This document shows positions 7,729-33,927 of a stretch of 64,000 bases of DNA, piece by piece (within the stretch, counting starts at the first letter, position 1; the number at the start of each line of letters is the position of its first letter). The notes under the pieces are model-generated. The model had not been told where the DNA came from, did no database searches, and worked only from the letters and a program-made list of their open reading frames with translations. The stretch spans positions 3,117,001 through 3,181,000 of the forward strand of contig NZ_CP026118.1 in NCBI RefSeq assembly GCF_004101865.1, written 5' to 3'. The position numbers were made by a program, and so were the translations under genes. Source of the stretch: Halobacillus litoralis (lineage in GTDB: Bacteria; Bacillota; Bacilli; Bacillales; Halobacillaceae).

Positions 7729-7732
7729 TATT

Positions 7733-7783: not shown

Positions 7784-7950
7784 TTTGGCTCGATTATGAA
7801 GGCTTTTGGACAGATTGTTAGTTGCTTTGGCATGATTCTGCTTGAAGTTGGACTGATTATGAGGCGGTTGGAAAAATTAATGCGTGGAGCGGCCGGATTA
7901 TCGCTCCTTTTGGACAGAAAAACCTGCCATCTTGAATCCGCTGGAAACAT
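7784..7950 (+). repeat. Degenerate 21-bp tandem repeat array (family P21), array 1
   Basis: About eight units start at 7784, 7805, 7826, 7847, 7867, 7888, 7909 and 7930, nearly all 21 bp apart. The common start is TTTGGACAGATT (variants TTTGGCTCGATT, TTTGGCATGATT, GTTGGACTGATT) and the second half varies. The array lies between a terminator and the 122-residue gene at 7993 and recurs on the other side of that gene at 8368-8540. Confidence 0.75.
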
Positions 7951-7992
7951 ACCGATATTAAAGAAAAGAGATCTTGAGGGAGCTGTAGAAGC

Positions 7993-8361: not shown

Positions 8362-8367
8362 TCCCAG

Positions 8368-8540
8368 GAGTTGGGACCGGCTGTTCCTGAGTTTCGCTTG
8401 ATTAAAGGTGAGTTTGGACAGATTCTCCGTAAGTTTGGATGGATTCACAATGAAACCGGACAGATTCACCAGTAACCTGGAAAGATTTTTGTCTGGTTTG
8501 GACAGAATAACACTCAGTTCAGCCAGAAAACCTTTCCGAA
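8368..8540 (+). repeat. Degenerate 21-bp tandem repeat array (family P21), array 2
   Basis: Units begin at 8368, 8389, 8410, 8431, 8452, 8474, 8495 and about 8515. The clearest units read GAGTTTGGACAGATTCTCCG and AAGTTTGGATGGATTCACAA. Spacing is 20-22, mostly exactly 21. It starts seven bases after the stop of the 122-residue gene and ends at the terminator hairpin. A frame inside it (8408-8590) shows a 7-residue periodicity only because 21 is a multiple of three; it has no ribosome site. Confidence 0.8.
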
Positions 8541-8546
8541 TAGAAA

Positions 8547-8580
8547 AAAGCCCGTTCTCCAGAATGAAGAACGGGCTTTT
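8547..8580. terminator. Bidirectional terminator
   Basis: Stem AAAAGCCCGTTCT/AGAACGGGCTTTT with A-rich and T-rich flanks, between the rightward 122-residue gene and the leftward TRAP permease gene. It can serve both. Confidence 0.85.
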
Positions 8581-8624
8581 CCTATACTGAGGATCGTTTT
8601 TCGCATGAATGTCAAAGAAAGGAT

Positions 8625-10583
8625 TTAGGATAACGTTGCTTGTTGATTTTCCGTACCCTCATTTTTGTTACGGATCCACTGGACAACTGTGATGAGACAG
8701 AAAATGCCCACTCCGATCAAGGATATGATGAAGTTCGGGTAAACGAGCAACAGTCCGCCTGCGAATAAGGCGAATCGCTCCAGCCAGCTGACTTTTGTTA
8801 CATAATAACCGATCATAGCTGAACTGATGGCGGCCATCCCTAAGAGTGCGGTGACCACACTGATCGAGACGTTTACCGCATTTGCATCTCCTTGCAACAG
8901 CAGGATAGGGTTGGTCACGAAAACGTATGGGATGATGAAAGCGGCAATCGCCAATTTGACAGCTGTCACCCCTGCTTTCATCGGATTTGCCTTCGCGATC
9001 CCGGCCCCGGCGTACGCGGCTAAACAGACGGGCGGCGTAATATCTGCGACGATGCCGAAATAGAACACGAACATATGGACAGCAATGACAGGCACATCAA
9101 ATGCGAGCAAGGCAGGAGCTGCCATCGTTGCAGTTACGACATAGTTGGCTGTCGTCGGCAGTCCCATGCCGAGAATGATACAGGCGATCATCGTGAAGAA
9201 CATGACAAGGAAGAATTGACCTTGAGCAAGGTCGATGATTCCACCGGCAATCTTTGGTCCAAGACCGGTTATTGTCACGGTTCCTGCGATTATACCGGCG
9301 GTCGCACAGGCGGCGATGACCGGGAGTGCGACACGAGCGCCTTCTTCGAGTAGCTTGATGATCCCTTTTAGTGACATCCGGGTTTCTTGTCGGAAGAAAC
9401 TGATGACAAAGGCGGTTGCGATTGCGAATAAGGCCGCATAAGTCGGTGTACGTCCAGACAGCAAGAAGCCGATAATAATGACAAGCGGAAGAAAGAGATC
9501 GAGCCGTTTCAACAGCTTGTTCGTTTTCGGCAGTTCTTCTTTTGTAAGCCCGCGAATGTTTTGTTTCCGTGCTTCAAAGTGGGTTCCCAAGAAAACGCCC
9601 GAAAAATATAATAGGGCTGGGATGATGGCAATGACAATGATTTCGTTATATGGGATGCCGGTGTAGGAAGCCATGATAAAGGCGGCTGCTCCCATAATCG
9701 GCGGCATCAGTTGACCTCCTGTTGAGGCAGAAGCTTCTGAAGCTGCCGCGAAATGCGGTTTGAAGCCAGCATTTTTCATCATCGGAATCGTGAATGACCC
9801 TGATCCGACTGTGTTGGCTACAGAACTTCCGCTGACCATCCCTTGCAGTCCACTTGCTGCAACGGCTGCCTTCGCTGTTCCACCTGTATAACGGCCGGTC
9901 AGCCGGAGGGCGAGGTCATTGAAAAATTGTCCGATATTCGTTTTGACTAAAATGACCCCGAAAAAGAGGAACAAGAAAATGTAAGTGGATGAAATTTGAA
10001 TCGGGATTCCAAAAATTGCGCTTGAACTGAAAAACATTTTGGTGGCTAAAGACGGCCAGTCAAAACCGGCATGACCGATGATCGGAATGAAATTGCCGAA
10101 TAATCCATAAAGCAGTGCCACCATTGCAATAATGACAATAGGCAGGCCGACCACTCGTCTTGTTGCTTCTAGTAAAAGTATGATTCCAGCTGTTGCTACA
10201 ATCTGATCCATGTAAGTAAAACCGAAAATGATCGCTTCATTGATCAATCGTTCATAATTTTGAATGATATAAAAGTTCGTGTAGAGCGCCAGGGCAGCTA
10301 AAATGACGTCATACCAGGGAATTCCCCGTTTTGATGAAGAGGAAGGTTTGAACGGATAGAGCAGGTACACTAAGCACAAGGCTGCACCAAGGTGGATCGC
10401 CCCCTGCATCAGGGATACATAAGCCCCGCGGTAAGCGGTGTACAATTGAAAAATCGTAAGTGCGCTTCCTAGAATGAGTGTCAGCCATCCCCAGGCCCCC
10501 AAATTCGTGCGGAATGTACTTTCTTTATCATATTTCGCCATAAGCTCCTGCTTGTCTACTTCTTTGTTATCTTGTGTCGCCAC
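8625..10583 (-). CDS. TRAP transporter fused permease (DctQM type, TAXI family)
   Basis: About 652 residues with many hydrophobic segments: a 4-TM DctQ-like N-terminal part fused to a 12-TM DctM-like part. Motifs typical of the large TRAP subunit include GLQGMVSGSSVANTVGSGSF, TGGQLMPPIMGAAAFIMA, GLPTTANYV and ADITPPVCLAAYAGAGIAK. It works with the binding protein encoded just upstream to import an organic anion using a sodium gradient, useful in a salt-adapted cell. I prefer the GTG at 10583 (preceded by ACGGAGGTAG) to the longer frame from 10634. A hairpin lies in the 80-base gap after the binding-protein gene. The substrate is unknown; TAXI systems often carry glutamate or dicarboxylates. 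Confidence 0.9.
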   Translation of the reverse strand: MATQDNKEVDKQELMAKYDKESTFRTNLGAWGWLTLILGSALTIFQLYTAYRGAYVSLMQGAIHLGAALCLVYLLYPFKPSSSSKRGIPWYDVILAALALYTNFYIIQNYERLINEAIIFGFTYMDQIVATAGIILLLEATRRVVGLPIVIIAMVALLYGLFGNFIPIIGHAGFDWPSLATKMFFSSSAIFGIPIQISSTYIFLFLFFGVILVKTNIGQFFNDLALRLTGRYTGGTAKAAVAASGLQGMVSGSSVANTVGSGSFTIPMMKNAGFKPHFAAASEASASTGGQLMPPIMGAAAFIMASYTGIPYNEIIVIAIIPALLYFSGVFLGTHFEARKQNIRGLTKEELPKTNKLLKRLDLFLPLVIIIGFLLSGRTPTYAALFAIATAFVISFFRQETRMSLKGIIKLLEEGARVALPVIAACATAGIIAGTVTITGLGPKIAGGIIDLAQGQFFLVMFFTMIACIILGMGLPTTANYVVTATMAAPALLAFDVPVIAVHMFVFYFGIVADITPPVCLAAYAGAGIAKANPMKAGVTAVKLAIAAFIIPYVFVTNPILLLQGDANAVNVSISVVTALLGMAAISSAMIGYYVTKVSWLERFALFAGGLLLVYPNFIISLIGVGIFCLITVVQWIRNKNEGTENQQATLS

Positions 10584-17348: not shown

Positions 17349-17375
17349 AAGGCTTGTCTCCCGGACAAGCCTTTT
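17349..17375 (+). terminator. Intercistronic hairpin after bioY
   Basis: Stem AAGGCTTGTC/GACAAGCCTT with a TCCCG loop and TTTT after it. It lies between bioY and the acyl-CoA ligase gene and is a plausible partial terminator that would lower expression of the downstream genes. Confidence 0.65.
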
Positions 17376-17398
17376 GGTCTATCCAGAGGGGGAATTTC

Positions 17399-18868
17399 AT
17401 GGCACTGATCGGAGAAAGAATTCACGAAAAAGCACGGTGTTTTCCGGAAAAAGAAGCGGTTGTCCATGGGAGAACAGTGCTTACATATGAGGAATTGCTA
17501 TACCAGATGATGACGTTAAAAAGGCAATGCACCTATCAATTAGGTTCCATGAAAGGTAAGAAAATAAGTTTTCTTCTGCCGAACGGACCGGAATGGCTTG
17601 TCGTCTTCCTAGCCGTGAGCTCGTCTGGAGGAATAGTGATTCCACTGGATCCGAAGTGGCCCAAATCGCAGCTTGATGATGTTTTGTTAGACGCCGACCC
17701 GGATTTGATCATCTACGACAAGGATTTGACGGACCTGTCTGGACGGGATCATGCGTACACATGGGATGAAATCAGCATTTTCCCTGAGCTGGAACTGCCT
17801 GCAGAGCAAATAAATGATGACGACATTTTTTACATCGGTTATACCTCTGGGACGACAGGGCGGCCGAAAGGATTCATGAGGGCCCACGCCTCCTGGGCTG
17901 ATTGCTTTTCGGAAGGGGCAGAAGTTTTTTCATTGAAGCAGGAGGATCGGATTTTTTCTCCTGGACCGCTCGTGCACTCCCATTTCCTTTATGCTTCCAT
18001 TCAAGCGCTTCACCTTGGTACAACGCTTCATCTTGTTTCTTCTTTTCAAGCAGAAGAGGTGTGGCGCGTGCTGGAAGACAAGGACATTACGGTTTTGTAT
18101 ATTGTCCCGACGATGTTCGAAGCTTTGAAACGGACAGAGATTTCTGGTCATGCTTCTTATTTGAAAACCATGATATCGTCCGGGGCGAAATGGGAGAAAC
18201 CTTCTAAACGGCAAGCCTCTCAACTTTTCCCTGAAACGGACATTTATGAATTTTTCGGCGCATCGGAACTCAGTTTTGTCAGTGTGCAGACGGTCTCAGG
18301 TCGTAATCTTCCTGACGGGGCTATCGGCACACCTTTTCCTCAAGTGGAATGGTCGATTCGCATAGACGCAGGCGATGAAGCGGCCGAGGGGGAAGTCGGG
18401 ATGTTGTTTGTGAAGAGTCCCTGGATTTTCGAGGGATATTTGAACAGACCCGAGCAAACAGCTGAGATGTTTGATGGAGATTGGGCAACGGTTGGAGACT
18501 TGGCTTACAAAAATGAAAGGGGACAAGTCATCCTTAGCGGCCGCAAACAAAATATGATCATCAGTGGCGGGTTGAATATTTATCCGGAAGAAGTGGAGCG
18601 GGTGATTCGTGATCATCCAGCGATTGATGAGGTGATCGTCCTTGGCCAGCCTGATAGCTATTGGGGAGAAAAAGTGACCGCAGTTTATACCGGGGATAAA
18701 TCATTATGCGTGGATCAGCTTGAGCTTTTTTGTAAGCAATGGTTACCGAAATACAAGTGTCCGAAAGAGTGGGTGGCTGTAGCTGATTTCCTATACACCT
18801 CCAGCGGAAAAGTGGCGCGGAAACAGATGCTTGATTGGCTTGCTGAAAAGGAGGGATTTCATGGGTGA
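17399..18868 (+). CDS. yhfT: AMP-binding acyl-CoA synthetase (YhfT-like)
   Basis: 489 residues from ATG 17399, chosen for the GAGGGGGAA site directly before it. The adenylate-forming signature YTSGTTGRPKG is intact. Later motifs are YEFFGASE, GDLAYKNERGQVILSGRKQN and a C-terminal lysine region SGKVARKQML, as in fatty-acid CoA ligases. The order bioY-yhfT-yhfS equals the BirA-controlled B. subtilis operon, so a link to biotin-related acyl chain supply (for example pimelate or fatty acid precursors) is reasonable but unproven. The stop overlaps the thiolase start by 8 bases, which suggests translational coupling. The acyl substrate is unknown. Confidence 0.85.
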   Translation: MALIGERIHEKARCFPEKEAVVHGRTVLTYEELLYQMMTLKRQCTYQLGSMKGKKISFLLPNGPEWLVVFLAVSSSGGIVIPLDPKWPKSQLDDVLLDADPDLIIYDKDLTDLSGRDHAYTWDEISIFPELELPAEQINDDDIFYIGYTSGTTGRPKGFMRAHASWADCFSEGAEVFSLKQEDRIFSPGPLVHSHFLYASIQALHLGTTLHLVSSFQAEEVWRVLEDKDITVLYIVPTMFEALKRTEISGHASYLKTMISSGAKWEKPSKRQASQLFPETDIYEFFGASELSFVSVQTVSGRNLPDGAIGTPFPQVEWSIRIDAGDEAAEGEVGMLFVKSPWIFEGYLNRPEQTAEMFDGDWATVGDLAYKNERGQVILSGRKQNMIISGGLNIYPEEVERVIRDHPAIDEVIVLGQPDSYWGEKVTAVYTGDKSLCVDQLELFCKQWLPKYKCPKEWVAVADFLYTSSGKVARKQMLDWLAEKEGFHG

Positions 18869-20009
18869 AGTAGTGCTCGTGGCGGGCAAAAGAACGGCAA
18901 TTGGAAAAATGGGAGGCGCTTTGTCACATGTGCCCCCTGAAAAACTTGCGAGTACGGTAATCCGGAAGTTGATGGCTGAAACGGAGCTGCCTCCGGAAGA
19001 AGTCGATGATGTCATCCTCGGTAATGTCGTCGGTCCTGGTGGAAATATTGCGCGGTTGTCAGCATTAGAAGCAGGACTCCCGGTTACTGTCCCTGGTGTA
19101 ACTGTCGATCGTCAATGCGGCTCTGGATTAGAAGCGATCATCATGGCAGCGCGGCTCGTGCAATCGGGTGCGGGGGATATCTATTTAGCGGGGGGTGTCG
19201 AGAGTACAAGTCTTGCGCCATGGAAAATGGAAAAGCCGGCGTCGATTCATGATCCACGTGGTCCATCATTGTATGGGCGGGCCCGTTTCTCACCGGAAGC
19301 GATCGGGGACCCGGAAATGGGTGAGGCGGCGGAGAATGTAGCGGAAATGTATCAAGTGCCGCGTGAAGCTCAAGATGCTTACGCCTATGCCAGCCACCAA
19401 AAAGCGGTCGAAGCCAAGCGGAAGGGTTGGTTCCAGGAAGAAACCGTCGAAGCTGATGGGGTCCATGAGGATGAGTGTCCTCGCCCGAATACTTCCATGG
19501 AAAAATTGACTTCCCTTTCGCCTGTCTTCCGGGAAGGCGGGACGGTGACGGCTGGGAATGCTTGTCCTATGAATGATGGTGCTTCGGTCGTGTTGGTCAT
19601 GTCTTATGACAAATGCCTTTCGCTTGGATTGACGCCGATCGTCCGATTTGTCGATTCCACAGTCGCCGGGGTCGACCCGAACTTGCTTGGCATCGGACCC
19701 GTTCCGGCAGTAAGAAAGTTGTTAGAACGGCAAAACCGAACCATAGAAGATGTTGATGTCGTCGAATTCAATGAAGCTTTTGCATCTCAAGTGATCGCTT
19801 CGTTGAAAGAATTGAGGGTTGATTTTCAAAAGGTGAATCTTGCAGGGGGAGCGCTTGCTTTAGGTCACCCTTATGGAGCCTCAGGTGCCATATTGGTGAC
19901 CCGGTTGCTGACGGAAATGAAACGCGGAGAGCTGAATTGTGGAATGGCGACTCTCGGCATTGGCGGGGGGATCGGACTTGCCGCTCTTTTCGAAAGGATG
20001 GGAAGATGA
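18861..20009 (+). CDS. yhfS: Acetyl-CoA C-acyltransferase (thiolase, YhfS-like)
   Basis: 382 residues, start ATG 18861 (AAAGGAGGGA before it; an upstream frame extension lies inside yhfT). Thiolase residues are visible: the nucleophilic Cys in VDRQCGSGLEA, NEAFASQ, the His in GGALALGHPYGASGA, and GIGGGIGLAALFE close to the C terminus. The final loop usually carries a CGGG-like Cys motif; here it reads GIGGGIG with no cysteine in that position (a Cys occurs six residues earlier, in NCGMATLG), so the second catalytic Cys may be displaced or absent and activity may differ. It forms or cleaves 3-ketoacyl-CoA. It sits in the BirA-type operon. Confidence 0.85.
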   Translation: MGEVVLVAGKRTAIGKMGGALSHVPPEKLASTVIRKLMAETELPPEEVDDVILGNVVGPGGNIARLSALEAGLPVTVPGVTVDRQCGSGLEAIIMAARLVQSGAGDIYLAGGVESTSLAPWKMEKPASIHDPRGPSLYGRARFSPEAIGDPEMGEAAENVAEMYQVPREAQDAYAYASHQKAVEAKRKGWFQEETVEADGVHEDECPRPNTSMEKLTSLSPVFREGGTVTAGNACPMNDGASVVLVMSYDKCLSLGLTPIVRFVDSTVAGVDPNLLGIGPVPAVRKLLERQNRTIEDVDVVEFNEAFASQVIASLKELRVDFQKVNLAGGALALGHPYGASGAILVTRLLTEMKRGELNCGMATLGIGGGIGLAALFERMGR

Positions 20010-20446
20010 TGGTCGAAGAAAAATGGGTGGACCATACGCTTGAATCTTCATCAATTCTTGTCCATCCCAATGAAATTCCATCATTCGCTGAGGCGATCTT
20101 TTTGAAAGATCCAATCTATTATGATGTCGAAGCGGCAAAAGCGCACGGCTATTCGCATATTCCGCTCCCTGCCACGATGCCCGTCACCTTTTGGAAAAAG
20201 TTCGACATCCCCTGGTTGGACGGGCTTGGTGGCGTCATCCATGCTAAACAGAGCTTTGAATACAAGACAACCTTAGTGGCTGACAGGGAGTATCAAGCAA
20301 CCTTATCACTGGATAAGGTCGAAACTAAAGAAAGCTCCCTTGTCATGATGGAATTTTTACATCATACGTTATCCATCTATCATTTGAATGTGCTGCAGTG
20401 CAAAGTTTATACCACCCTTATCGTGAAAGGTGGTGAATCGCCATGA
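20006..20446 (+). CDS. MaoC-like N-terminal (FAS1-like) dehydratase domain protein
   Basis: 146 residues. ATG at 20006 overlaps the thiolase stop (ATGATGG). Features such as DPIYYDVEAAKAHGYSHIPL and PATMPVTFWKKFD resemble the N-terminal half of two-part hotdog dehydratases, which pairs with a MaoC half to make an R-specific hydratase. The next gene overlaps by 4 bases and is just such a MaoC half, so the two probably form a heteromeric enoyl-CoA/3-hydroxyacyl dehydratase. It lies in a cluster with thiolase and reductase genes, which would complete a beta-ketoacyl cycle. These genes are absent from the B. subtilis operon. Confidence 0.75.
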   Translation: MMVEEKWVDHTLESSSILVHPNEIPSFAEAIFLKDPIYYDVEAAKAHGYSHIPLPATMPVTFWKKFDIPWLDGLGGVIHAKQSFEYKTTLVADREYQATLSLDKVETKESSLVMMEFLHHTLSIYHLNVLQCKVYTTLIVKGGESP

Positions 20447-20847
20447 ATACAGGGGAAGTCCTTACAGGAATAATAATTGAAGAAATCACAGGTGAGATGA
20501 TCGAGAATTACGCGAAAGCCTCTGGTGACGATAACTCGATTCATCTGGACGATGCCTCAGCTGAAAAAGCAGGATTCCCGCACGCGGTGGCTCACGGGAT
20601 GTGGTCGATGGGAGTCATTGATGCTTCGATCCACCGGTGGTTCAGGGGAAAACCGCCGATCAAAGAGCTGAGCACTTCTTTTATAAAACCATTGTTCAAA
20701 GGGGACAGCCTTTCAATAGAAGGAAAAGTTGCTAAGGAAGAAGCGGGAAAGTTTTTTGTCGATATTAAAGGGTTCAACCAACATCAGACGTGTGTCTTGA
20801 AAGCGAAACTGGTCATAGGGGGAAGCGAAGATGACGAACGTAAATGA
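20443..20847 (+). CDS. MaoC family hotdog dehydratase (R-specific enoyl hydratase type)
   Basis: 134 residues. ATG 20443 overlaps the previous stop as ATGA. The hydratase-2 signature is clear: ASGDDNSIHLDDASAEKAGF then AVAHGMWSMG, with the catalytic Asp and His in place. It catalyses reversible hydration of an enoyl-CoA to a 3-hydroxyacyl-CoA. With the preceding MaoC-N protein, the thiolase and the following SDR reductase it gives three of the four steps of a 3-ketoacyl cycle. Its end overlaps the next gene by 17 bases. Confidence 0.85.
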   Translation: MNTGEVLTGIIIEEITGEMIENYAKASGDDNSIHLDDASAEKAGFPHAVAHGMWSMGVIDASIHRWFRGKPPIKELSTSFIKPLFKGDSLSIEGKVAKEEAGKFFVDIKGFNQHQTCVLKAKLVIGGSEDDERK

Positions 20848-21610
20848 AGAAACCGTGATCGTAACCGGGTCCACCAAAGGAATCGGGCAGAGTACCGCCA
20901 TGGCTTTAGCTAAAGAAGGAGCAGCCGTCATAATTAATGGACGTAAGGATGCTGAAGTAGAAAGAGTGGTGGAACAGATTCGGCAGGCGGGAGGCAGGGC
21001 AGCAGGAGTCGCCGCCTGTGTCACCGAAGAGGCAACAGGGAGGCGTCTTGTCGAAGCAGCACTTGCGAACTTCGGAAACGTAACAGGTTTGATCAATAAC
21101 GCAGGGGTAACCAAAGATCGGATGGCCCATCGGATGGAACTTGGGGATTTCCAAGAAGTGCTCGATGTCCATGTCACGGGTGCGTTCATTCCCGCCCAGG
21201 CTGTCATCCGGCACTTACGCAGCCAAGAAAAATCCGGCTTCATCCTCAATATGACTTCACTTGCTGGCCTGATCGGCAATGTCGGCCAAGTGAACTACAG
21301 CGCAGCGAAGGCTGCCATTCTAGGGATGACCTGGACGCTGGCCAAAGAACTGGAGTCGAAATCGATCCAAGTAAATGCCATCGCCCCAGCTGCCCTCACC
21401 GATATGACGAGACCTCATATAGAAAAAGCCCAGCAACAAGCATCCAGTGAAGAGGAAGCGGCTTATTGGAATGTAGGCTCTGCCGAACAAGTCGCTCATT
21501 TTCTCATTGATTTCATCAAGAAGCGAGAGATGAATCAGACAGGCGAAACGTATGCGGTGAACGGTGAAGAAATAGGATACTGGCATCCACCCAGCTATGA
21601 ATTGCTGTAA
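20831..21610 (+). CDS. SDR family 3-oxoacyl reductase (FabG-like)
   Basis: 259 residues. Classical short-chain dehydrogenase motifs are present: TGSTKGIGQS (cofactor), NNAGVT, a catalytic Ser in NMTSLAGL and YSAAK (Tyr and Lys). It begins inside the end of the MaoC gene with AGGGGGAAG in front. By context it reduces 3-ketoacyl-CoA to the 3-hydroxy compound with NAD(P)H, last gene of the bioY-led operon. The C terminus (ETYAVNGEEIGYWHPPSYELL) is a little unusual. A terminator repeat follows. Confidence 0.85.
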   Translation: MTNVNEETVIVTGSTKGIGQSTAMALAKEGAAVIINGRKDAEVERVVEQIRQAGGRAAGVAACVTEEATGRRLVEAALANFGNVTGLINNAGVTKDRMAHRMELGDFQEVLDVHVTGAFIPAQAVIRHLRSQEKSGFILNMTSLAGLIGNVGQVNYSAAKAAILGMTWTLAKELESKSIQVNAIAPAALTDMTRPHIEKAQQQASSEEEAAYWNVGSAEQVAHFLIDFIKKREMNQTGETYAVNGEEIGYWHPPSYELL

Positions 21611-21875: not shown

Positions 21876-22628
21876 CTATTCCTTGCTTGTCACATGCTTC
21901 AAGTAATACTCGAAAACAAGATCGGCAAGCATCATTAGAGAAGATCGTGCGGAGACGTCGTAGCCTTCGTAGGAAACCTTCTGGACTGGTGCGCTGATCG
22001 CTTTTTGTACATATTGATTGATGATTCCGTCCAAATTATTGGTAACGGCGACTGTCTGCACGTTCAAGTGATCGAGCTTATCTGCTGCCTTGACGAGGGT
22101 TTCTGTGTTCCCGCTTGAGGAGATGAAGATGGCGAGGTCCTTTTTCCCTATCCAGTTACTGATCAAATCGACCATATGGGATTCGTAAATATACGTAGAG
22201 GAGCGGTTCATCTGCATCAAACGTTTACTGAGGTATTCGCCGATCATTTTGGTGAGGCCCACGGAGATGATGACGATCCGGTCCGCTTTTTCAATGGCAG
22301 AGGCGACCCATTCTAAATCGTCCGGCTGCAGATGGTTCAAACTTTTTTTGATGTCGTCCTGGTAACGTTCGATCGGATTCAAGTTTTCAGGTAAGGAAGT
22401 ATGTTCGATGCCTTTCAAGAAGTATTTGAATTCGGCATAGCCTTCAAATCCGAGTTTGTGACACAGGCGTATGATCGTTGTTGTACTGACCGTGTTCTCT
22501 TCCGCCATTCGTGTCAGGGGCATTTTTTTAGATTCCTCTAAGTGGTGTTCGATATAGTAAAGGACATGTTTTTCGGAATGCGTCAGGTCGGGCAATGAGG
22601 TGGCGAATGTCTCCAGTAGTTTTCCCAT
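21876..22628 (-). CDS. RpiR/MurR family transcriptional regulator
   Basis: 250 residues from ATG 22628, with GAGAGGAGC before it; a longer frame to 22691 runs through the operator and lacks a ribosome site. The N-terminal HTH (about 5-75, ending VSTTTIIRLCHKLGFEGYAE) is typical of RpiR, followed by a SIS sugar-phosphate-binding domain (about 105-235: RIVIISVGLTKMIGEYLSKR, DLAIFISSSGNTETLVKAAD). It faces away from the PTS-mannosidase operon across a perfect 26-bp palindrome and is very probably its regulator, sensing a phosphorylated sugar such as a mannosylglycerate phosphate or mannose-6-phosphate (inference). In E. coli the equivalent locus uses a GntR-type regulator, MngR. Confidence 0.88.
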   Translation of the reverse strand: MGKLLETFATSLPDLTHSEKHVLYYIEHHLEESKKMPLTRMAEENTVSTTTIIRLCHKLGFEGYAEFKYFLKGIEHTSLPENLNPIERYQDDIKKSLNHLQPDDLEWVASAIEKADRIVIISVGLTKMIGEYLSKRLMQMNRSSTYIYESHMVDLISNWIGKKDLAIFISSSGNTETLVKAADKLDHLNVQTVAVTNNLDGIINQYVQKAISAPVQKVSYEGYDVSARSSLMMLADLVFEYYLKHVTSKE

Positions 22629-22670
22629 GATGAAAGCTCCTCTCTTATGAACTGATATGAGTATATCATG

Positions 22671-22696
22671 AGGAAATGTACAATTGTACATTTCCT
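22671..22696. promoter_or_regulatory. Perfect 26-bp palindrome, likely operator of the RpiR regulator
   Basis: The left arm AGGAAATGTACAA (22671-22683) is followed by its exact reverse complement. It lies in the gap between the divergent regulator and PTS genes, 42 bases before the regulator ATG and 85 before the PTS ATG. A second, weaker inverted repeat TTGTAA...TTACAA is at 22711-22728. Confidence 0.75.
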
Positions 22697-22744
22697 GTAT
22701 AACTACCGTCTTGTAAGCTGTGTTACAACTGTATTAGAGACAAA

Positions 22745-22758
22745 TGAAAACACTTTCA
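22745..22758 (+). promoter_or_regulatory. Candidate cre (CcpA) site before the mannosylglycerate PTS gene
   Basis: TGAAAACACTTTCA matches the cre consensus TGWAANCGNTNWCA at all but one position (A for G in the central CG). It lies 23 bases before the PTS start codon, as expected for catabolite repression of a sugar operon. Confidence 0.6.
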
Positions 22759-22781
22759 CAACTAACGAGAGGGTGAGGGAT

Positions 22782-24749
22782 ATGCAACTTGCACAAATGA
22801 CTGAAAAAGGTCTGGTACGTTTTGACCTCAAAGAGAACAAAAAAGAAGATGTGCTTTGGAAACTATCCGAAGATCTTCAGCAAAAAGGATATGTCACATC
22901 GACTGAGGAATTTTATGAAACCGTTTTAGAACGGGAGAAAATATCAGCGACAGGTTTGGAATCAGGACTTGCCATTCCACACGGGAAGTCTTCCGCTGTG
23001 AAAAAAGCTGGTTTTGCTGTCGCCCGGTTGGAAAATCCAATCGCGGACTGGGAAAGTATCGACCCGGATAACCAGGTGGAGCTTGTCTTTCTATTGGCGA
23101 TTCCTGAGGGTGAGGCGGGTTCTACTCACTTGAACCTTTTGGCAGAGTTAAGTACGCGTCTTATGGATAAGGATTATTACAACTCCTTGATGAGTGCAGC
23201 GAACCCTGATGAATTTCTCACTGCGTTGGACCACGAAGGTGAACCGGCCAAAGAAGAACCTCCACAAGAATATACGAAAACGGTCTTGGTGATTACCGCT
23301 TGTGCGGCCGGGATCGCCCATACCTATATGGCAGCTGAAGCTTTGGAGCAGGCAGGTAAGAAGCTTGGTGTCAAAGTTTATAGTGAGAAGCAGGGAGCGA
23401 ATGGTTTAGAGGATCCGCATTCAGATGAAATCATCCAGGGAGCGGATGGGATCATTTTTGCAACAGATATTTCACCAAAAGGGAAAGAGCGTTTCAAAGG
23501 GCTCCCATATGTGCAAACACGCGTAGCGGCTCCACTTGAGCGCGGTGAAGAACTGATTGAACAAGTATTGAACAATCCAGACGGAACTGTTCAGACGAAT
23601 GGAGATGAAGAATCTTCATCCCCCAATTCTCAAAATAAACAAGGCGTCCTCGCAGAAATGGGCCAGGCCATCATGACAGGGATTTCCTACATGATACCGG
23701 TCATCGTAGCGGCTGGTCTGATGATGGGAATTGCCAAACTGGGAGCGATTCCATTCGGGCTTGTCAATGAAATCAATGACATCAGCTATGCGACATCCGA
23801 CAATGAACTTTTCAAGATATTGCACTATCTCGATAAATTCGGTTTCATGATATTCCAGTTCATGTATCCGATCTTCGCAGCCTTTACGGCGTATGCTTTG
23901 GCTGACCGTGTCGGTATTGTGCCAGGTTTCATCGGGGGTATATTCGCAGCCGGGATCCACTACCGTTTCTGGGGTGTGGAAGATGGCATTCCCTCCGGTT
24001 TCTTAGGAGCTTTGATCCTCGGTTTAGCCGCTGGTTACATTGCCAAAACTTTAAATGAAAAAATCAAACTAAGCCGTAATTTGCAGGCGATGAAGCCGAT
24101 GCTCATTATTCCTGCAATCAGTATTCTTTCGATCTTTTTATTGAACTTTTATATTGTTGATCCTGTCTTCGGTGGGTTGAATGAACTGCTGAGAAACACG
24201 ATCGAATCTGCGCAAGAGTCTGGCGAAGTCGTGTTATCAACGATCATTGCCGCTGCCACTGCCTTTGATTTAGGTGGACCGATCAACAAAGCGGCCGGTG
24301 CCATCGCCATCGGACTTGCCGGTGACCAGATTTTCCCACTGACCGCCCGTGTGCTGGCCATTGTCATCCCGCCAATCGGATTGGGTCTTGCGACTGTATT
24401 GGACCGCTTCGTCGTCGGTCGTCGTGTTTTTGATGAAAACCTGCGTATTACCGGGAATACCTCCATTCTACTGGGCTTTATTGCCATAAGTGAAGGAGCG
24501 ATTCCATTCATGCTTCGCAACCCGTTGATCACGATTCCCATCAACATCATCGGAGCCATTATCGGTTCGGTGACGGCTGTGCTGCTCGGCGCGGTTCAGT
24601 GGTATCCACTGCCTGCATTCTGGGGTTGGCCGCTTGTCGACAATTTATGGGCCTACTTGATCGGCTTGTTTGTCGGTACGATGTTCATTGCGCTGACGAA
24701 CATTTTCATCCGATTCGCTCTGATCAAACGCGGACGCATGCAAATATAA
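22782..24749 (+). CDS. mngA: PTS fructose-family EIIABC, probable 2-O-alpha-mannosyl-D-glycerate permease
   Basis: 655 residues from ATG 22782 (GAGGGTGAGGG before it), close to the length of E. coli MngA. Domains in order: EIIA (about 1-150, phospho-His67 in GLAIPHGKS), EIIB (about 165-265, phospho-Cys174 in ITACAAGIAHTYMAAEA) and EIIC (about 300-655, many membrane spans, GHxx-like AISEGAIPFM). It imports and phosphorylates a sugar at position 6. Fructose permeases share this layout, but there is no 1-phosphofructokinase here; instead a GH38 mannosidase, a GH13 phosphorylase and a glycerate kinase follow, so mannosylglycerate (and perhaps glucosylglycerate) is the best guess. The assignment rests on context. 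Confidence 0.82.
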   Translation: MQLAQMTEKGLVRFDLKENKKEDVLWKLSEDLQQKGYVTSTEEFYETVLEREKISATGLESGLAIPHGKSSAVKKAGFAVARLENPIADWESIDPDNQVELVFLLAIPEGEAGSTHLNLLAELSTRLMDKDYYNSLMSAANPDEFLTALDHEGEPAKEEPPQEYTKTVLVITACAAGIAHTYMAAEALEQAGKKLGVKVYSEKQGANGLEDPHSDEIIQGADGIIFATDISPKGKERFKGLPYVQTRVAAPLERGEELIEQVLNNPDGTVQTNGDEESSSPNSQNKQGVLAEMGQAIMTGISYMIPVIVAAGLMMGIAKLGAIPFGLVNEINDISYATSDNELFKILHYLDKFGFMIFQFMYPIFAAFTAYALADRVGIVPGFIGGIFAAGIHYRFWGVEDGIPSGFLGALILGLAAGYIAKTLNEKIKLSRNLQAMKPMLIIPAISILSIFLLNFYIVDPVFGGLNELLRNTIESAQESGEVVLSTIIAAATAFDLGGPINKAAGAIAIGLAGDQIFPLTARVLAIVIPPIGLGLATVLDRFVVGRRVFDENLRITGNTSILLGFIAISEGAIPFMLRNPLITIPINIIGAIIGSVTAVLLGAVQWYPLPAFWGWPLVDNLWAYLIGLFVGTMFIALTNIFIRFALIKRGRMQI

Positions 24750-24759
24750 ATCATCAGCT

Positions 24760-24786
24760 GGCCAGCCCCTTCCACCGGGCTGGCTG
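24760..24786 (+). terminator. Intercistronic hairpin between PTS and mannosidase genes
   Basis: GCCAGCCC/GGGCTGGC stem with a 7-8 base loop and no T run. It is probably a stabilising or attenuating hairpin inside the operon rather than a full stop. Confidence 0.5.
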
Positions 24787-24809
24787 TATGCTTAAGGAGG
24801 ACAGCTTTT

Positions 24810-27473
24810 ATGGCTGAAAAACGTGTGTATGTCGTTCCTCATTCCCATTGGGATAGGGAATGGTATTTTACAATAGAAGATTCCAATTTATTATTAGCTG
24901 AAAATCTCGATCACTTGATCGACTTACTTGAAACAAACGAAGATTATCATGGCTATATTTTTGATGGTCAAATTTCGATTGTGGATGAATATTTGAAAGT
25001 ACGACCACAGAACGCAGAAAGGCTGCGGGCCCTTGTCGAAGCAAAACGGATTTTTGTCGGCCCCTGGTACACACAAGCGGATTCACTGCTTGTCCATAAG
25101 GAATCACTCGTCCGTAATCTGCTCTATGGGGTGAAAGGCGCGGAAGCGATGGGTCATTCGATGAACATCGGATATTTACCGGATATTTTCGGTCAAAATC
25201 AATATTTGCCGTCATTATTCAAAGGGTTCGGTATTGAGTACTCGATTTTGCAGCGTGGGATTTACCTGGATCAACTGGATGAAAACTTGAACTTCACGTG
25301 GCAGTCACCAGATGGAGAGCATGTGAAAGCGAACCTCTTAGAACTGGGGTATGGACCGGGGAAATTTTTGAGTGCGGAAGAAGAGTTCCATAAAGAACGC
25401 TTACAGCCGATGCTCGACTCTTTATCTGAATTGAACCGTGATACGGACCACTTGCTGCTGCCATCGGGTGGGGATCAGGTGCTCGTCCGCAGTCACTTTC
25501 CTGAAACCATCGAACGGCTGAATGAGCAAGATGATCGTTATGAATATATTTTATCCGACTATGAAACATTCATGGAAGATACATGGGACAGGCAAGATTT
25601 CGATCACACGGTGGAGGGGGAACTGATTGCGACAGAAGGTTCGCGCATTCATAACACGATCGCCTCCCAAAGGTATGACATTAAAAAATGGAACCATATC
25701 GTCGAGCGCAAAATCATCAATCAGCTCGAACCACTAGCTGTCATCGGTTCCACCCTTGGCTTGAAATATCCGCAAGCCTGGCTTGATGAGATGTGGAAAA
25801 ATCTTTTCGACGTCCACGCCCACGACAGTATTGGTGGTTGCAACTCCGACGATACCAACCGTGATATTGTTCAGCGTCTTGTGAAAATCGACCGGCAGGC
25901 GGATGGATTGATGAATTTGTTGAAAAGGCAGATGACCTCAGCTGTTCGTGAGCGTTTGGAGCAAGAGGATATCTTCCTCGTATTCAACACAGCAGCGAAA
26001 AAGTATCAAACCTCTGTGAAAACGGTGTTGTTTACCAGGGAAAAGGACTTTTATGTTCGTACACTCGAGGATGGGCTTGTTAATTTCAGCATCATCGATC
26101 AAGAATACTTGAGTGGTGGCAAGAAGATTGTCGTCACCGCTGATGGCGATCAGGAAGTAGAAGTGCCCGGCTATTACCGTACAGAAATCCTTTTGGAAAC
26201 CATGGAAGTGCCGCCGCTTGGTTATTTGACTCTGCAAATCGATGAAAAGGAAGCAGCTATGGACGCATTGGAGGAAACGAAGAAAAATCATATCGAAAAT
26301 GATCGGTTCCGTGTTGAATGTACGGATGGAAAACTCCTGCTCCGTGAAAAAGGTTCTGATCTTGTCGTAGAAAACTTGATTCAATTTGAAGACACAGGTG
26401 ATGCAGGCGATTCCTATGATTATTCGCCATTGCCTGGTTCAGGATCGATCATTACGGAAGCTGCGAAATTGAAGGATGTCTACACTTCCGCTTTGGTCGA
26501 AAAAATGGTTGTGGAACATTCGGTGACACTCCCTGCTGATCTTGGAGCTCGCAGAGAAGGGCGCCATGATGAAACCTTGACCATTGAAACAGAACTGGAG
26601 CTGCGAAACGGGGAAAGCTTCGTTCGCGTCCAACATGAAATCGATAACAGAGTGGACGATCACCGCGTCCGCGTTCTCATTCAGACCCCTGTAGAGCGAC
26701 CGGACTCCTCCTTCGCCGACCAAGGTTATAGCTTGATCGAACGGGCAACAGAAAATCCACGGATGGACGTATGGCAGGAGCAAGGGTATAAAGAAGCACC
26801 AGTACCCATCTATAAGGTTGAACAATTTGCCGGCGTCCAGGGAGAAGAAGGTACTTTCGCTGCCCATACAAAAGGGTTGAAGGAGTACGAAGTATTGAAA
26901 GAAGAAGGCAGATTCGCTCTCACATTGTTCCGTAGTGTCGGTTTGCTCGGCCGTGACGATTTACTATGGCGCCCAGGCCGGGCTTCAGGCATCAACAACA
27001 AGGTCGTCCGCACACCTGACGCCCAAATGCACGGCAAGATGACCTTTGAATATGCCATCCAAATGAGCTCAAACCAGGTCGAGGTTTCGGAACTCTTTGC
27101 AACTGCAGATCTTTTTCAGGAAAGGTATGTCACCTATCAAAATCAATCCCTCAACACATTCGAGGAACGTCTCGATCGGTTTGAGGTTCCACTTCCACTT
27201 AAGGGATTGCCTTCGTCCTATTCATTGGCTTCTTTAGAAAGTGACACGGTTTTCACTAGTTCCATCAAAAAAGCCCACGGTGGCGATGGGTATGTCATGC
27301 GACTCTTTAACCCTGAAGATACAAAGGCCGTATTCGAACTGAAGGGTGAAGGCTTGACTGATCTTCAATCTGTGAATTTAGCTGAAGAAGTTGTTCCTGT
27401 TGAACCGTTCGAAGTGGCTGCGAAAAGCTTCCAAACGATTCGAGTGAGCACGCAAGGAGGGACGAACGCATGA
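24810..27473 (+). CDS. mngB: GH38 alpha-mannosidase, MngB-like
   Basis: 887 residues with AAGGAGG before the ATG, about the size of E. coli MngB. GH38 features: zinc-binding HSHWDREW (His11, His13, Asp15), catalytic nucleophile Asp125 in GYLPDIFGQ, and zinc-site HAHDSIGG. Long beta-rich C-terminal domains follow. In E. coli MngB cleaves 2-O-(6-phospho-mannosyl)-D-glycerate to mannose-6-phosphate and glycerate in the cytosol. The lack of a signal peptide and the adjacent PTS and glycerate kinase genes fit that job. A general cytosolic mannosidase is the alternative. Its stop overlaps the next start (ATGA). Confidence 0.88.
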   Translation: MAEKRVYVVPHSHWDREWYFTIEDSNLLLAENLDHLIDLLETNEDYHGYIFDGQISIVDEYLKVRPQNAERLRALVEAKRIFVGPWYTQADSLLVHKESLVRNLLYGVKGAEAMGHSMNIGYLPDIFGQNQYLPSLFKGFGIEYSILQRGIYLDQLDENLNFTWQSPDGEHVKANLLELGYGPGKFLSAEEEFHKERLQPMLDSLSELNRDTDHLLLPSGGDQVLVRSHFPETIERLNEQDDRYEYILSDYETFMEDTWDRQDFDHTVEGELIATEGSRIHNTIASQRYDIKKWNHIVERKIINQLEPLAVIGSTLGLKYPQAWLDEMWKNLFDVHAHDSIGGCNSDDTNRDIVQRLVKIDRQADGLMNLLKRQMTSAVRERLEQEDIFLVFNTAAKKYQTSVKTVLFTREKDFYVRTLEDGLVNFSIIDQEYLSGGKKIVVTADGDQEVEVPGYYRTEILLETMEVPPLGYLTLQIDEKEAAMDALEETKKNHIENDRFRVECTDGKLLLREKGSDLVVENLIQFEDTGDAGDSYDYSPLPGSGSIITEAAKLKDVYTSALVEKMVVEHSVTLPADLGARREGRHDETLTIETELELRNGESFVRVQHEIDNRVDDHRVRVLIQTPVERPDSSFADQGYSLIERATENPRMDVWQEQGYKEAPVPIYKVEQFAGVQGEEGTFAAHTKGLKEYEVLKEEGRFALTLFRSVGLLGRDDLLWRPGRASGINNKVVRTPDAQMHGKMTFEYAIQMSSNQVEVSELFATADLFQERYVTYQNQSLNTFEERLDRFEVPLPLKGLPSSYSLASLESDTVFTSSIKKAHGGDGYVMRLFNPEDTKAVFELKGEGLTDLQSVNLAEEVVPVEPFEVAAKSFQTIRVSTQGGTNA

Positions 27474-29158
27474 AAAATGAACTGTTAACTAAAATTGAAA
27501 AGCACCTGAGAGATATCTATGGAGAAGTTCGGAGCGAAGATCTCCAGCAATTTGAACAGTTGATCGCTGATTGGTCGGAGAAGGAGTCGACGACGCCTTC
27601 CGCACCGACAGAGCGGAATGTCTACTTGATCACTTATGGCGACAGTATTTATGAAAAAGGGAAACCGACACTTCCGACATTGAACCAGTTCTTGCAGGAG
27701 GAGGTCGGGGGCTCGATTACAGATGTCCACCTGCTCCCGATGTTCCCTTATACTTCGGATGACGGTTTTTCAGTCACCGATTACCGGAGGATTCATTCCG
27801 ATTTAGGTGAATGGGGAGATATTCGTTCCTTCTCTGAAGATTATCGTCTGATGTTCGATTTCGTTGCCAATCATATGTCTAAATCAAGCGAATGGTTTCA
27901 AAAGTATTTACAGGATGATCCCGCCTATACCAACTATTTCATCCCTGAACAGGAAGCGTTTGATACAAATGAAGTCGTGCGTCCGCGGACGTCCCCCTTA
28001 TTCCATGAGTATCAAGGGGACAATGAGAAGAAGACGGCCTGGACGACCTTCAGTGAAGACCAGGTCGATGTCAACTTCAAGCATCTCCCTGTGTTAGTGG
28101 AGATGACAGACATCCTGCTCTCTTATGCTCATCAAGGCGGGACAAGTATCCGGTTGGATGCCATCGGTTTCATATGGAAAGAATCGGGGACGACAAGCAT
28201 CCATCTGCCGCAGGCTCATGCGATCATCCAGCTATGGAATACGATCATCAATGCATTTCAACCGAACACGCAAATCATTACAGAAACGAACGTTCCTCAT
28301 AAAGAAAACATCAGCTATTTCGGAAATGGCACTGATGAAGCGAATATGGTCTATCAATTCACCTTGCCCCCGCTTGTTCTCTACAGCTTCATGAAGCATG
28401 ATGCTGCGAAATTGACCGAATGGGCGAAGACGATCAGTAAGGTTTCAGATCAAGCGACTTATTTCAACTTCCTCGCCAGTCATGACGGTATCGGGATGCG
28501 CCCGACGGAAGGGATTTTGGAGGAAGAAGAGAAGGATGAACTCGTTGCGCAAGTGAAGGCGAACGGCGGAGAGGTTTCCTATAAAAATAATCCCGATGGC
28601 AGTCAGTCGGTTTACGAACTGAATATCAACTACTCGGAAGCCCTTAAGAATAAGGGAGAAGATGTCACAGAACAAGACGAAATCGATAAAATGCTGGCGG
28701 CTCATTCGATTCTACTGTCATTCATCGGTGTCCCTGCCATCTATTATCACTCTTTGCTTGGCTCGAAGAATGATAGAGAAGGCATGCAGAAATCAGGAAT
28801 TCCGCGCCGGATCAATCGCGAAAAGCTTGAGTTGGAATCGATTCGTGAGCAGCTCCACAATGATTCAAGACGGGCTGGGATTTTTAATGGCCTGAAAAAA
28901 ATAATCGCCATCCGTCAAGAAGGAGGTGCTTTCTCTCCTTATGCAGAACAAGAAGTAATAGAGATGGATTCGCGTATCTTTGCGTTGAAGCGTCTGAATG
29001 TTGAAACAGGCGAGGAAGTCTTTTTTGCCGTGAACACCTCACGCGAAGCGGTCACGATTGACGTTCCTTTTAAAGGGGAAAACCTATTGGAGGATAATAC
29101 TGTGGAATCAGACGTCACATTACCGAAGTATGGATTCATCTGGCTGAAAAAAGTCTAG
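27470..29158 (+). CDS. GH13 (sucrose phosphorylase-like) glycosyl phosphorylase, probable glucosylglycerate phosphorylase
   Basis: 562 residues, coupled to mngB by a 4-base overlap with GGAGGGACG before the ATG. Barrel motifs: DFVANHMS, SIRLDAIGFIWKE (nucleophile Asp230), IITETNVPH (acid/base Glu272) and LASHDGIGMRP (Asp339). The order and the ETNVPHKENISYFGNG stretch fit the GH13 subfamily 18 phosphorylases, and the length equals E. coli YcjM, a glucosylglycerate phosphorylase. The expected reaction is glucosylglycerate plus phosphate to glucose-1-phosphate plus D-glycerate, with glycerate passed to the next gene's kinase. Sucrose-6'-phosphate-type specificity for a PTS-phosphorylated substrate is an alternative. 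No secretion signal. Confidence 0.8.
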   Translation: MKNELLTKIEKHLRDIYGEVRSEDLQQFEQLIADWSEKESTTPSAPTERNVYLITYGDSIYEKGKPTLPTLNQFLQEEVGGSITDVHLLPMFPYTSDDGFSVTDYRRIHSDLGEWGDIRSFSEDYRLMFDFVANHMSKSSEWFQKYLQDDPAYTNYFIPEQEAFDTNEVVRPRTSPLFHEYQGDNEKKTAWTTFSEDQVDVNFKHLPVLVEMTDILLSYAHQGGTSIRLDAIGFIWKESGTTSIHLPQAHAIIQLWNTIINAFQPNTQIITETNVPHKENISYFGNGTDEANMVYQFTLPPLVLYSFMKHDAAKLTEWAKTISKVSDQATYFNFLASHDGIGMRPTEGILEEEEKDELVAQVKANGGEVSYKNNPDGSQSVYELNINYSEALKNKGEDVTEQDEIDKMLAAHSILLSFIGVPAIYYHSLLGSKNDREGMQKSGIPRRINREKLELESIREQLHNDSRRAGIFNGLKKIIAIRQEGGAFSPYAEQEVIEMDSRIFALKRLNVETGEEVFFAVNTSREAVTIDVPFKGENLLEDNTVESDVTLPKYGFIWLKKV

Positions 29159-29174
29159 ATTGGAGGTGGATGCA

Positions 29175-30299
29175 ATGAAAATCGTCATCGCCCCCGATTC
29201 TTTCAAAGGCTCTCTGTCGGCAGACCAAGTGAGTCTAGCGATGGAAGAGGGGATACACGCAGCGGTCAAGGGGGCAGAGACCATCCGCATCCCGGTGGCG
29301 GATGGCGGGGAAGGAACGATCGATGCCCTTGGCAAATGGGTTTCCCGTGAAGTTCCAGTACAGGTGAAGGGACCGACAGGAGAGAAGGTAGACACATCCT
29401 TTGTCGAGCTTCCTTACGAAGGGAAGGTTGTCACTTTCATAGAGTGTGCCAGAAGTACGGGGCTGACCCTTGTACCTTCTGATCAGCGCAAACCCTTCTT
29501 GTTGAACTCTTTTGGCCTTGGCGAGCAAATACGTGCAGCGATCGAAAAGGGATCGAGGAACCTGTTCATTTCACTTGGAGGAAGCGCGACCACGGACGGC
29601 GGGACAGGTTTACTGCAAGCACTTGGCTATCGTTTTTTTGATGAAAAAGGTGAACGCTTACCAGAAGACCGCAATGTTTTGACTGAGATTGCCGACATGG
29701 ATGATCGTGATGTCTTACCAGAACTGGAAGACTGTAAACTGACAATCGCCTCTGACGTGACCAACCCTTTCTATGGAGAAAAAGGAGCAGCGCATGTTTA
29801 CGGCCCTCAAAAAGGCGCGAATCAAGAAGATGTGCTCCTATTGGATCAGGGGTTGGAAAAGTTTGCTGAAGCCGTCCGCGGTTATTCAGGCATCGATCTT
29901 CAGGAAATCCCAGGTGCTGGTGCAGCCGGCGGACTTGGAGGGGCGCTTGCGGGGGTTCTCCATGCTACCATGAAATCTGGCTTCCGAGTCGTCGCTGATT
30001 TAGTCAAATTAGATGAAATGATCGCAGGGGCAGACCTTGTATTGACAGGGGAAGGAAGCCTTGATGCTCAATCAGCCGATGGGAAAGTGCCTGTTTCGGT
30101 CGGGAAAATTGCCGATAAACATGACGTTCCGGCTGTCGCTGTTGCCGGGGCCGTCGAAACGGAGGGGGATTATACCCCTCTCACAGCCGTGTTCTCGATT
30201 CAGCCTGGTCCCTGTTCGCTGGAGCAGGCCGTGGAAGCGGAGACGGCTTATAACAATATCGTCCACATCACGAAGCAAGTGGTCCGTTTGAGGAAATAG
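29175..30299 (+). CDS. glxK: Glycerate kinase
   Basis: 374 residues from ATG 29175 (TTGGAGGTGG before it; a short upstream frame is not used). Family blocks: KIVIAPDSFKGSLSA at the N terminus, PVADGGEGTIDAL, SLGGSATTDGGTGLLQALG, SDVTNPFYGEKGA, GAGAAGGLGGAL and LVLTGEGSLDAQS. It phosphorylates D-glycerate with ATP to 2-phosphoglycerate (GlxK/GarK type), feeding glycolysis. Last gene of the mngA-mngB-phosphorylase operon: both upstream hydrolytic steps would release glycerate, so the operon makes one closed pathway. Confidence 0.92.
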   Translation: MKIVIAPDSFKGSLSADQVSLAMEEGIHAAVKGAETIRIPVADGGEGTIDALGKWVSREVPVQVKGPTGEKVDTSFVELPYEGKVVTFIECARSTGLTLVPSDQRKPFLLNSFGLGEQIRAAIEKGSRNLFISLGGSATTDGGTGLLQALGYRFFDEKGERLPEDRNVLTEIADMDDRDVLPELEDCKLTIASDVTNPFYGEKGAAHVYGPQKGANQEDVLLLDQGLEKFAEAVRGYSGIDLQEIPGAGAAGGLGGALAGVLHATMKSGFRVVADLVKLDEMIAGADLVLTGEGSLDAQSADGKVPVSVGKIADKHDVPAVAVAGAVETEGDYTPLTAVFSIQPGPCSLEQAVEAETAYNNIVHITKQVVRLRK

Positions 30300-30303
30300 G
30301 GAG

Positions 30304-30336
30304 TCGGCTGCTTGGGACAGGCAGCCGGCTTTTTTG
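30304..30336 (+). terminator. Terminator after glycerate kinase
   Basis: CGGCTGC/GCAGCCG stem followed by TTTTTT, just past the stop codon. Confidence 0.8.
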
Positions 30337-31443: not shown

Positions 31444-31478
31444 AATAGGCAACAAGTTAAACATGTGACGGAGATTTG

Positions 31479-31543
31479 GAGACTCACACTATTTTTGCGA
31501 ACTTTACCCAAAGTTTGCAGTTTAGTGGGGGTCTCTTTTTTTT
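31479..31543 (+). terminator. Leader terminator of glpFK, probable GlpP antitermination target
   Basis: A long hairpin between promoter and glpF: outer arms GAGAC/GTCTC and CACTA/TAGTG, inner arms GCGAACTTT/AAAGTTTGC, then eight T residues. In B. subtilis the glpFK leader ends in such a terminator and GlpP with glycerol-3-phosphate prevents termination. The glpP gene is not in this window. Confidence 0.8.
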
Positions 31544-31574
31544 CGTACAAAAAATGAAAAAAGGAGTGGAGATC

Positions 31575-33927
<2,353 letters not shown>

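Follow-up and report, generated by a model that had tools for sequence, protein, structure and literature searches.

A phosphotransferase-GH38-GH13_18 operon of Halobacillus litoralis with a predicted role in mannosylglucosylglycerate breakdown

Introduction

The closest described relatives of the locus reported here are two Escherichia coli systems. In mngRAB, a divergent regulator gene accompanies genes for a fructose-family EIIABC permease of the phosphotransferase system (PTS) and for the glycoside hydrolase family 38 (GH38) enzyme MngB, which releases mannose-6-phosphate by acting on the 6-phospho form of mannosylglycerate (PMC2815779). The second system, ycjMNOPQRSTU, combines an ATP-binding cassette (ABC) importer with YcjM, a glucosylglycerate phosphorylase (GGaP) of family GH13_18, and YcjT, a kojibiose phosphorylase of family GH65. 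GGaPs (EC 2.4.1.352) of Meiothermus silvanus, Spirochaeta thermophila and E. coli share a conserved −1 pocket, a (T/S)ETN motif and a loop-A Glu, and the latter two are regarded as signatures of this activity (PMC7178133). A PTS and a GH13_18 phosphorylase also meet in sucrose-6F-phosphate phosphorylase operons, where the fructose that leaves carries the phosphate (PMC7178133). Here, we describe a five-gene locus in a 64,000-nucleotide stretch of the Halobacillus litoralis genome (NZ_CP026118.1, positions 3,117,001 to 3,181,000; hereafter the window) that resembles each of these systems in part.

The compound on which this locus may act is mannosylglucosylglycerate (MGG), α-mannosyl-1,2-α-glucosyl-1,2-glycerate (PMC4555173). 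It is described as a rare solute, found in Petrotoga and in the marine mesophilic planctomycete Rhodopirellula baltica, in which MGG rises with salt and nitrogen shortage (PMC3694870). No description of MGG breakdown was found in the literature searched, where several key papers were missing and the MGG passages found concern occurrence, structure or synthesis, and no earlier description of the gene order was found there either, although a key paper outside that literature might mention it.

Results

A five-gene locus predicted to dismantle MGG

The locus consists of an RpiR-family regulator gene and, transcribed divergently from it, genes for EIIABC, a GH38 enzyme, a GH13_18 enzyme and a glycerate kinase (Table 1). 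An earlier reading of this DNA (the original prediction) had placed the last four of these genes in one tight operon with a 4-base overlap between the two glycosidase genes, and both the open reading frames, all five of which were confirmed at that position, and the family models agree with it; the overlap is ATGA at 27470-27473. From the gene set and order, the clades and signatures of the proteins, a conserved palindrome and the co-occurrence of the genes across genomes, all directly observed, we infer a substrate, a series of reactions and a mode of regulation. We consider it likely that the genes form one linear pathway on an α-mannosyl-glucosylglycerate, most probably MGG (Man-α1,2-Glc-α1,2-glycerate).

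In the proposed pathway, EIIABC would import MGG and phosphorylate O6 of the outer mannose, and the GH38 enzyme would hydrolyse the outer bond to give mannose-6-phosphate and unphosphorylated glucosylglycerate. The GH13_18 enzyme would then split glucosylglycerate by phosphorolysis, yielding glucose-1-phosphate and glycerate, the kinase would convert glycerate to phosphoglycerate, and the RpiR protein would control the gene set through a single palindromic operator. As in mngRAB, cleavage of a phosphorylated glycerate glycoside would set mannose-6-phosphate free. The outer sugar would carry away the phosphate added by the PTS, at an earlier stage than in the sucrose-6F-phosphate systems, and what remains must be glucosylglycerate if the GH13 enzyme is to act. 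The outer sugar is predicted to be mannose because GH38 enzymes are α-mannosidases and MngB cuts 6-phospho-mannosylglycerate. To our knowledge, MGG is the one natural compound of α-mannosyl-glucosylglycerate composition.

The GH13_18 enzyme has the signatures of a glucosylglycerate phosphorylase

The window GH13 protein is 43% identical to E. coli YcjM and scores below the curated sucrose phosphorylase model. It carries TETN at residues 271-274 on strand 5 and Glu383 in loop A in place of Gln, and the Asn and the Glu are each found in 61 of 61 aligned rows. Its catalytic triad of Asp230, Glu272 and Asp339 corresponds to Asp192, Glu232 and Asp290 of BaSP. In the Meiothermus enzyme, changing Asn275 and Glu383, which we take to be the two signature positions of the window protein, cuts activity severely (PMC7178133). 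The window enzyme differs from the characterised GGaPs in sharing its operon with a PTS and a PTS-linked GH38.

Ten −1 subsite positions, mapped through BaSP residue numbers, are identical in all 61 rows, of which 36 are PTS-linked, 14 ABC-linked and 11 of other context. The −1 pocket of sucrose phosphorylase is described as rigid, tolerating not even minor changes, and as seemingly the same across GH13_18 (PMC7178133). Glucosylglycerate delivered by a PTS, with the phosphate on its glucose, should not fit this conserved pocket.

The 61 rows of the GH13 tree come from 119 distinct proteins collected plus a few later additions, trimmed to their last 575 residues; outside the tree stand a lineage 46-48% identical to the window protein (L093-L100) and the GH13 proteins of the 397-genome draw described below. 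The window protein is sister to a protein encoded in an ABC operon without GH38 (L089; 81% identity, support 98/89). Next to this pair are four proteins (L091, L216-L218; 72-74% identical to the window GH13), each encoded by the last gene of a ycj-type operon with relatives of YcjN, YcjO, YcjP, YcjT and YcjU, including a kojibiose-phosphorylase-like GH65. Since the nearest GH13 relatives sit in ABC operons, and ABC import adds no phosphate, the substrate of the window GH13 is probably unphosphorylated. Linkage to a PTS requires six changes on the tree, at least five of them forced by supported branches.

One different arrangement was seen at two loci of a single Epulopiscium assembly (L042/L053; 6009-10551), where a glucose-type PTS, a HAD phosphatase and a GH13_18 with GGaP signatures stand in a row with no GH38. 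This could be a direct PTS route for glucosylglycerate, the phosphatase lying between PTS and GH13 as if the phosphate were removed first. Unrecognised neighbours were checked against Pfam at nine loci (L041, L042, L044, L046, L056, L058, L219, L220 and L221), and other GH13-adjacent PTS types may exist elsewhere.

The L093-L100 lineage is a second GGaP-like group, present in eight genomes of the same genus with a glycerate kinase gene directly after the GH13 gene; no neighbouring match to the PTS, GH38 or ycj-type ABC reference proteins was found at these loci, one of which (L094) is a 5.2-kb contig. At a further locus (L221; G480:C24:138000-157000, 7339-9882), a truncated window-type GH13 with 65% identity over query residues 138-560 is flanked on one side by an ABC ATPase/FtsX pair and on the other by a kinase gene that follows it, with no window-type EIIABC or GH38 adjacent.

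EIIABC and GH38 form clades separate from MngA and MngB

As in mngRAB, a fructose-family EIIABC gene is followed by a GH38 gene, but the window proteins are only 36% and 33% identical to MngA and MngB, respectively, and both score below the curated equivalog cut-offs (486.3 bits against 763 for MngA, NF007293; 781.4 bits against 1138 for MngB, NF007331). EIIABC contains the EIIA His motif AIPHGKS and the EIIB Cys motif ITACAAGIAHT. In a tree of 45 EIIABC rows (44 different; 37 window-type, 4 mng-type and 4 other), one branch with an SH-aLRT value of 100 parts the window type (36 different proteins) from the mng-type and other rows.

The Zn ligands, nucleophile and acid/base of the GH38 protein (H13, D15, D125, H338; D222) are as in SpGH38, whose active-site residues served as the reference (PMC2815779), and are kept in 50 of 50 aligned rows, two of which are the window protein. 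The GH38 tree comprises 37 rows, namely 35 hand-picked from 83 distinct fetched proteins, the window protein and E. coli MngB, identical proteins having been merged before this and the other trees. The 20 rows whose genes precede a GH13 gene form one clade (SH-aLRT 100); MngB and a paralogue from the window's own genome group together outside it. Seven residues (Q89, Q129, Q223, R279, H281, R724 and S726) are common to the aligned PTS-linked GH38 groups, being kept at 95% or more in two large groups and in 6/6 and 2/2 members of two small ones, and are missing in 5/5 GH38 proteins without a PTS gene in the surrounding stretch. These residues may bind phosphate, which would fit a 6-phosphomannoside substrate.

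The own-genome paralogue belongs to a second cluster about 118 kb away (L088, 5688-11205; G000:C1:3015687-3021204), in which RpiR, EIIABC and GH38 genes have no kinase gene beside them. Its EIIABC is 54% identical to MngA and its GH38 50% identical to MngB. With this separate mngRAB-type cluster in the genome, use of plain mannosylglycerate is probably already provided for.

Window-type GH38 is followed by GH13 throughout the genome draws

The gene order EIIABC-GH38-GH13 was found in 32 of 51 loci located through GH13, a recurrence that is not due to chance. We surveyed three sets of genomes, each of them a draw and not all genomes: 44 from the family, 397 from the order and 299 from the class. 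In the family, the window types of EIIABC and GH38 share one set of 10 genomes, each of which also has an adjacent GH13, and none of the 44 has a window-type EIIABC or GH38 lacking the other two. Five further genomes have a window-type GH13 (68% identity or more) without EIIABC and GH38. The mngAB-type pair is present in 14 of the 44 genomes, six of them among the 10 operon-bearing ones, and in none with a GH13 adjacent. In one genome (G332; L154 / L158, G332:C1:673293-674971), the GH13 gene is split into two reading frames and the operon is otherwise complete.

In the order draw, 67 genomes gave a GH38 match, and these were examined for a downstream GH13 (E 1e-60 or better) on the same strand within 1 kb, or 10 kb for the control. 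Window-type GH38 (55% identity or more) was found once in each of 34 genomes, which span 10 family codes, and in all 34 cases a GH13 follows on the same strand after a gap of 0-705 bases. By contrast, none of the 42 places with a GH38 of 33-37% identity has a GH13 behind it. Eight genomes contain both kinds of GH38. The class draw, in which the searches scored the best four and the best three candidates per genome, yielded window-type GH38 in two genomes, both with GH13. In the family of genome G260, one of the 38 genomes has window-type GH38 and three, G260 included, have a GH38 of 35-36% identity. A GH13-linked operon and an mngAB-type operon share one stretch at two loci (L033, 3354-18463; L040, 3479-17090).

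These distributions bear directly on the original prediction, in which a single PTS brings in mannosylglycerate as well as glucosylglycerate, GH38 acting on the former and GH13 on the latter, with one kinase for the glycerate. The sequence supports much of that proposal, namely glycerate-linked solute breakdown, an MngB-like GH38 linked to a PTS, a GH13 with GGaP signatures and a single kinase; the nearest characterised relative of each enzyme does act on those two compounds, and both would yield glycerate. The part that fits less well is the pair of parallel substrates. The genome already holds a separate mngAB-type pair that matches the E. coli proteins better, the window proteins fall into separate clades, and the GH13 enzyme would meet 6-phosphorylated glucose in a closed, invariant −1 pocket. 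Moreover, this GH38 type was never seen without GH13 in the order draw, whereas other GH38 proteins stand without it, and GH13 also occurs without this GH38. Such an asymmetry is predicted by a linear pathway and not by two parallel ones, and we regard parallel use of the two substrates as unlikely.

The linear chemistry might apply to another α-mannosyl-glucosylglycerate, with a different linkage or derived from a glycolipid or polysaccharide. GH38 family members cut several α-mannosyl linkages, and sequence leaves the linkage unfixed here. Among matching compounds, MGG is nevertheless the one reported to accumulate as a solute (PMC3694870, PMC4555173), and a different substrate of this kind is quite improbable. 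Similarly improbable is that PTS and GH38 use mannosylglycerate or another mannoside and share only the kinase with a GH13 that recycles the cell's own glucosylglycerate: GGaP has been suggested as a sink for self-made glucosylglycerate (PMC7178133), and in L093-L100 the GH13 gene lies beside a kinase gene with no transporter recognised nearby, but this would leave unexplained why no EIIABC-GH38 pair of this type turned up in the draws unless a GH13 was there too.

Several observations weigh against a linear MGG pathway or narrow its basis. Which outer mannoside is present, and how it is linked, is deduced from MGG being the sole such natural compound known to us. Recurrence of the whole gene order in relatives, as raised by the original prediction, holds for EIIABC-GH38-GH13, but the kinase gene comes directly after GH13 in only 19 of those 32 loci. 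The counted genomes are related, so that 34 of 34 does not represent 34 independent events, and the order draw scored the best two GH38 candidates per genome. The EIIB pattern is unmatched in 2 of the 37 window-type EIIABC rows (L027 and L028), and the group of GH38 proteins without a PTS gene, with which the seven putative phosphate-binding residues were compared, comprises five proteins. We also considered a changed GH38 aglycone site built from the residues that differ from MngB, and dropped this idea: 17 of 46 MngB-separating residues lie within seven residues of the active site, compared with 47 of 130 shared conserved columns (p 0.53). As the separating residues do not cluster around the active site, the protein gives no direct sign of a changed aglycone site.

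A linear MGG pathway would, on the other hand, explain how a phosphorylase that should need an unphosphorylated glucoside comes to stand behind a PTS, and it would assign a role to genes whose scores fall short of the curated MngA, MngB and sucrose phosphorylase models. It would also provide a catabolic route for MGG, a compound made by other microbes. In the order draw, the GH38-GH13 pair is spread over ten family-level groups, and MGG would then have to be abundant enough to pay as a food source. Halobacillus and Thalassobacillus are the closest named relatives in the trees, from which we infer that the source organism is salt-adapted.

A conserved palindrome is the likely operator of the RpiR regulator

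The original prediction also assigned an RpiR regulator to the locus, and the protein indeed contains both HTH_6 (PF01418) and SIS (PF01380), the domains of the RpiR/MurR family; this sets it apart from E. coli MngR, which gave no match to it. It is likely to be a local regulator of the divergent operon that senses a sugar phosphate. The promoter region contains a perfect 24-base palindrome, GGAAATGTACAATTGTACATTTCC, which has one match in the window at up to three mismatches (0 expected), and its 20-base core occurs at this sole place in the 4.28-Mb genome at the same tolerance. Among relatives, TGTACANNTGTACA is present with at most one mismatch in 28 of 34 (12 of them exact), compared with 0.07% of shuffled regions, and is missed in six (L014, L015, L021, L033, L036 and L040). 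This count omits 34 of 68 stretches in which no regulator was recognised, nearly all of them too short for the promoter. The mng cluster of the same genome contains no TGTACANNTGTACA at up to two mismatches. The palindrome is likely the RpiR operator, and its being single in the genome and missing from the mng cluster argues that the regulator probably governs the predicted MGG operon alone.

A candidate catabolite-responsive element (cre)-like site, TGAAAACACTTTCA, differs at one position from the consensus, and catabolite repression through CcpA is possible. A sigma-70 pattern scan gave 10 sites, compared with 11.6 expected.

A possible common last step for glycosyl-glucosylglycerates

Like E. 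coli ycj, the window operon joins a GGaP-type GH13_18 gene to genes able to remove an outer α1,2-linked sugar; it differs in using a PTS and GH38 where ycj uses ABC import and a GH65 phosphorylase. Because the same final enzyme lies beside two kinds of outer-sugar remover, we tentatively suggest, with less confidence than for the MGG pathway, that GGaP may be the shared last step in a modular peeling of glycosyl-glucosylglycerates. PTS and GH38 would remove mannose from MGG, or an ABC importer with YcjT/YcjU would remove glucose from kojibiosylglycerate, before GH13_18 splits the core. The inducer of E. coli ycj is suspected to be a kojibiose derivative (PMC6599011). If the modular scheme is true, it would identify a kojibiosylglycerate as the natural substrate that this operon still lacks.

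At a Chloroflexota locus (L056, 340-10752), an ABC transporter, a GH38 of another type, a GH130 and a glycosyltransferase-like gene accompany a YcjM-like GH13, an arrangement that might represent the peeling idea with ABC import. A glycosyltransferase-like gene was likewise seen beside LacI, ABC and GH13 genes at another locus (L219).

Gene starts, terminator and neighbouring genes

The features of the locus are collected in Table 1. The longest RpiR and EIIABC open reading frames, with ends at 22691 and 22668, overlap only via upstream start codons. Ribosome-binding sites (RBS) read by eye place the starts at 22628 and 22782, with a divergent promoter of about 150 bases between them. For the kinase, a start at 29175 is more likely than one at 29160; the protein scores 399.4 bits with TIGR00045, above the cut-off of 168.45, and also matches PF02595. 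The hairpin 3' of the kinase gene is marked by its folding energy and was not among the sites of a pattern scan.

Table 1. Features of the predicted MGG locus (window coordinates)
Feature	Position	Strand	Basis
RpiR-family regulator (HTH_6 + SIS)	21876..22628	-	PF01418, PF01380; start from RBS and MGKLL
Candidate RpiR operator, perfect 24-base palindrome GGAAATGTACAATTGTACATTTCC	22672..22695	.	Window and genome pattern counts; kept in relatives
cre-like site TGAAAACACTTTCA	22745..22758	+	Read off sequence; one mismatch to consensus
PTS EIIABC, fructose/MngA superfamily, own clade	22782..24749	+	PF00359, PF02302, PF02378; phosphorylation motifs; tree
GH38 α-mannosidase, GH13-linked clade; predicted 6-phospho-mannosyl-glucosylglycerate hydrolase	24810..27473	+	PF01074, PF09261, PF07748; active site; tree
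GH13_18, predicted glucosylglycerate phosphorylase, YcjM-like	27470..29158	+	PF00128; TETN, loop-A Glu383, catalytic triad
Glycerate kinase (glycerate to phosphoglycerate, predicted)	29175..30299	+	TIGR00045, PF02595
Intrinsic-terminator-like hairpin with U-run, 3' of kinase	30298..30334	+	-25.1 kcal/mol, z -6.18

Upstream of the locus, window positions 17354-21610 hold an acyl-CoA operon-like run of genes for an AMP-binding ligase, a thiolase, two dehydratase-like proteins and a short-chain dehydrogenase. Just downstream, at 31476-33927 and apart from the predicted MGG operon, lie genes for an MIP channel and an FGGY-family, glycerol-kinase-like protein.

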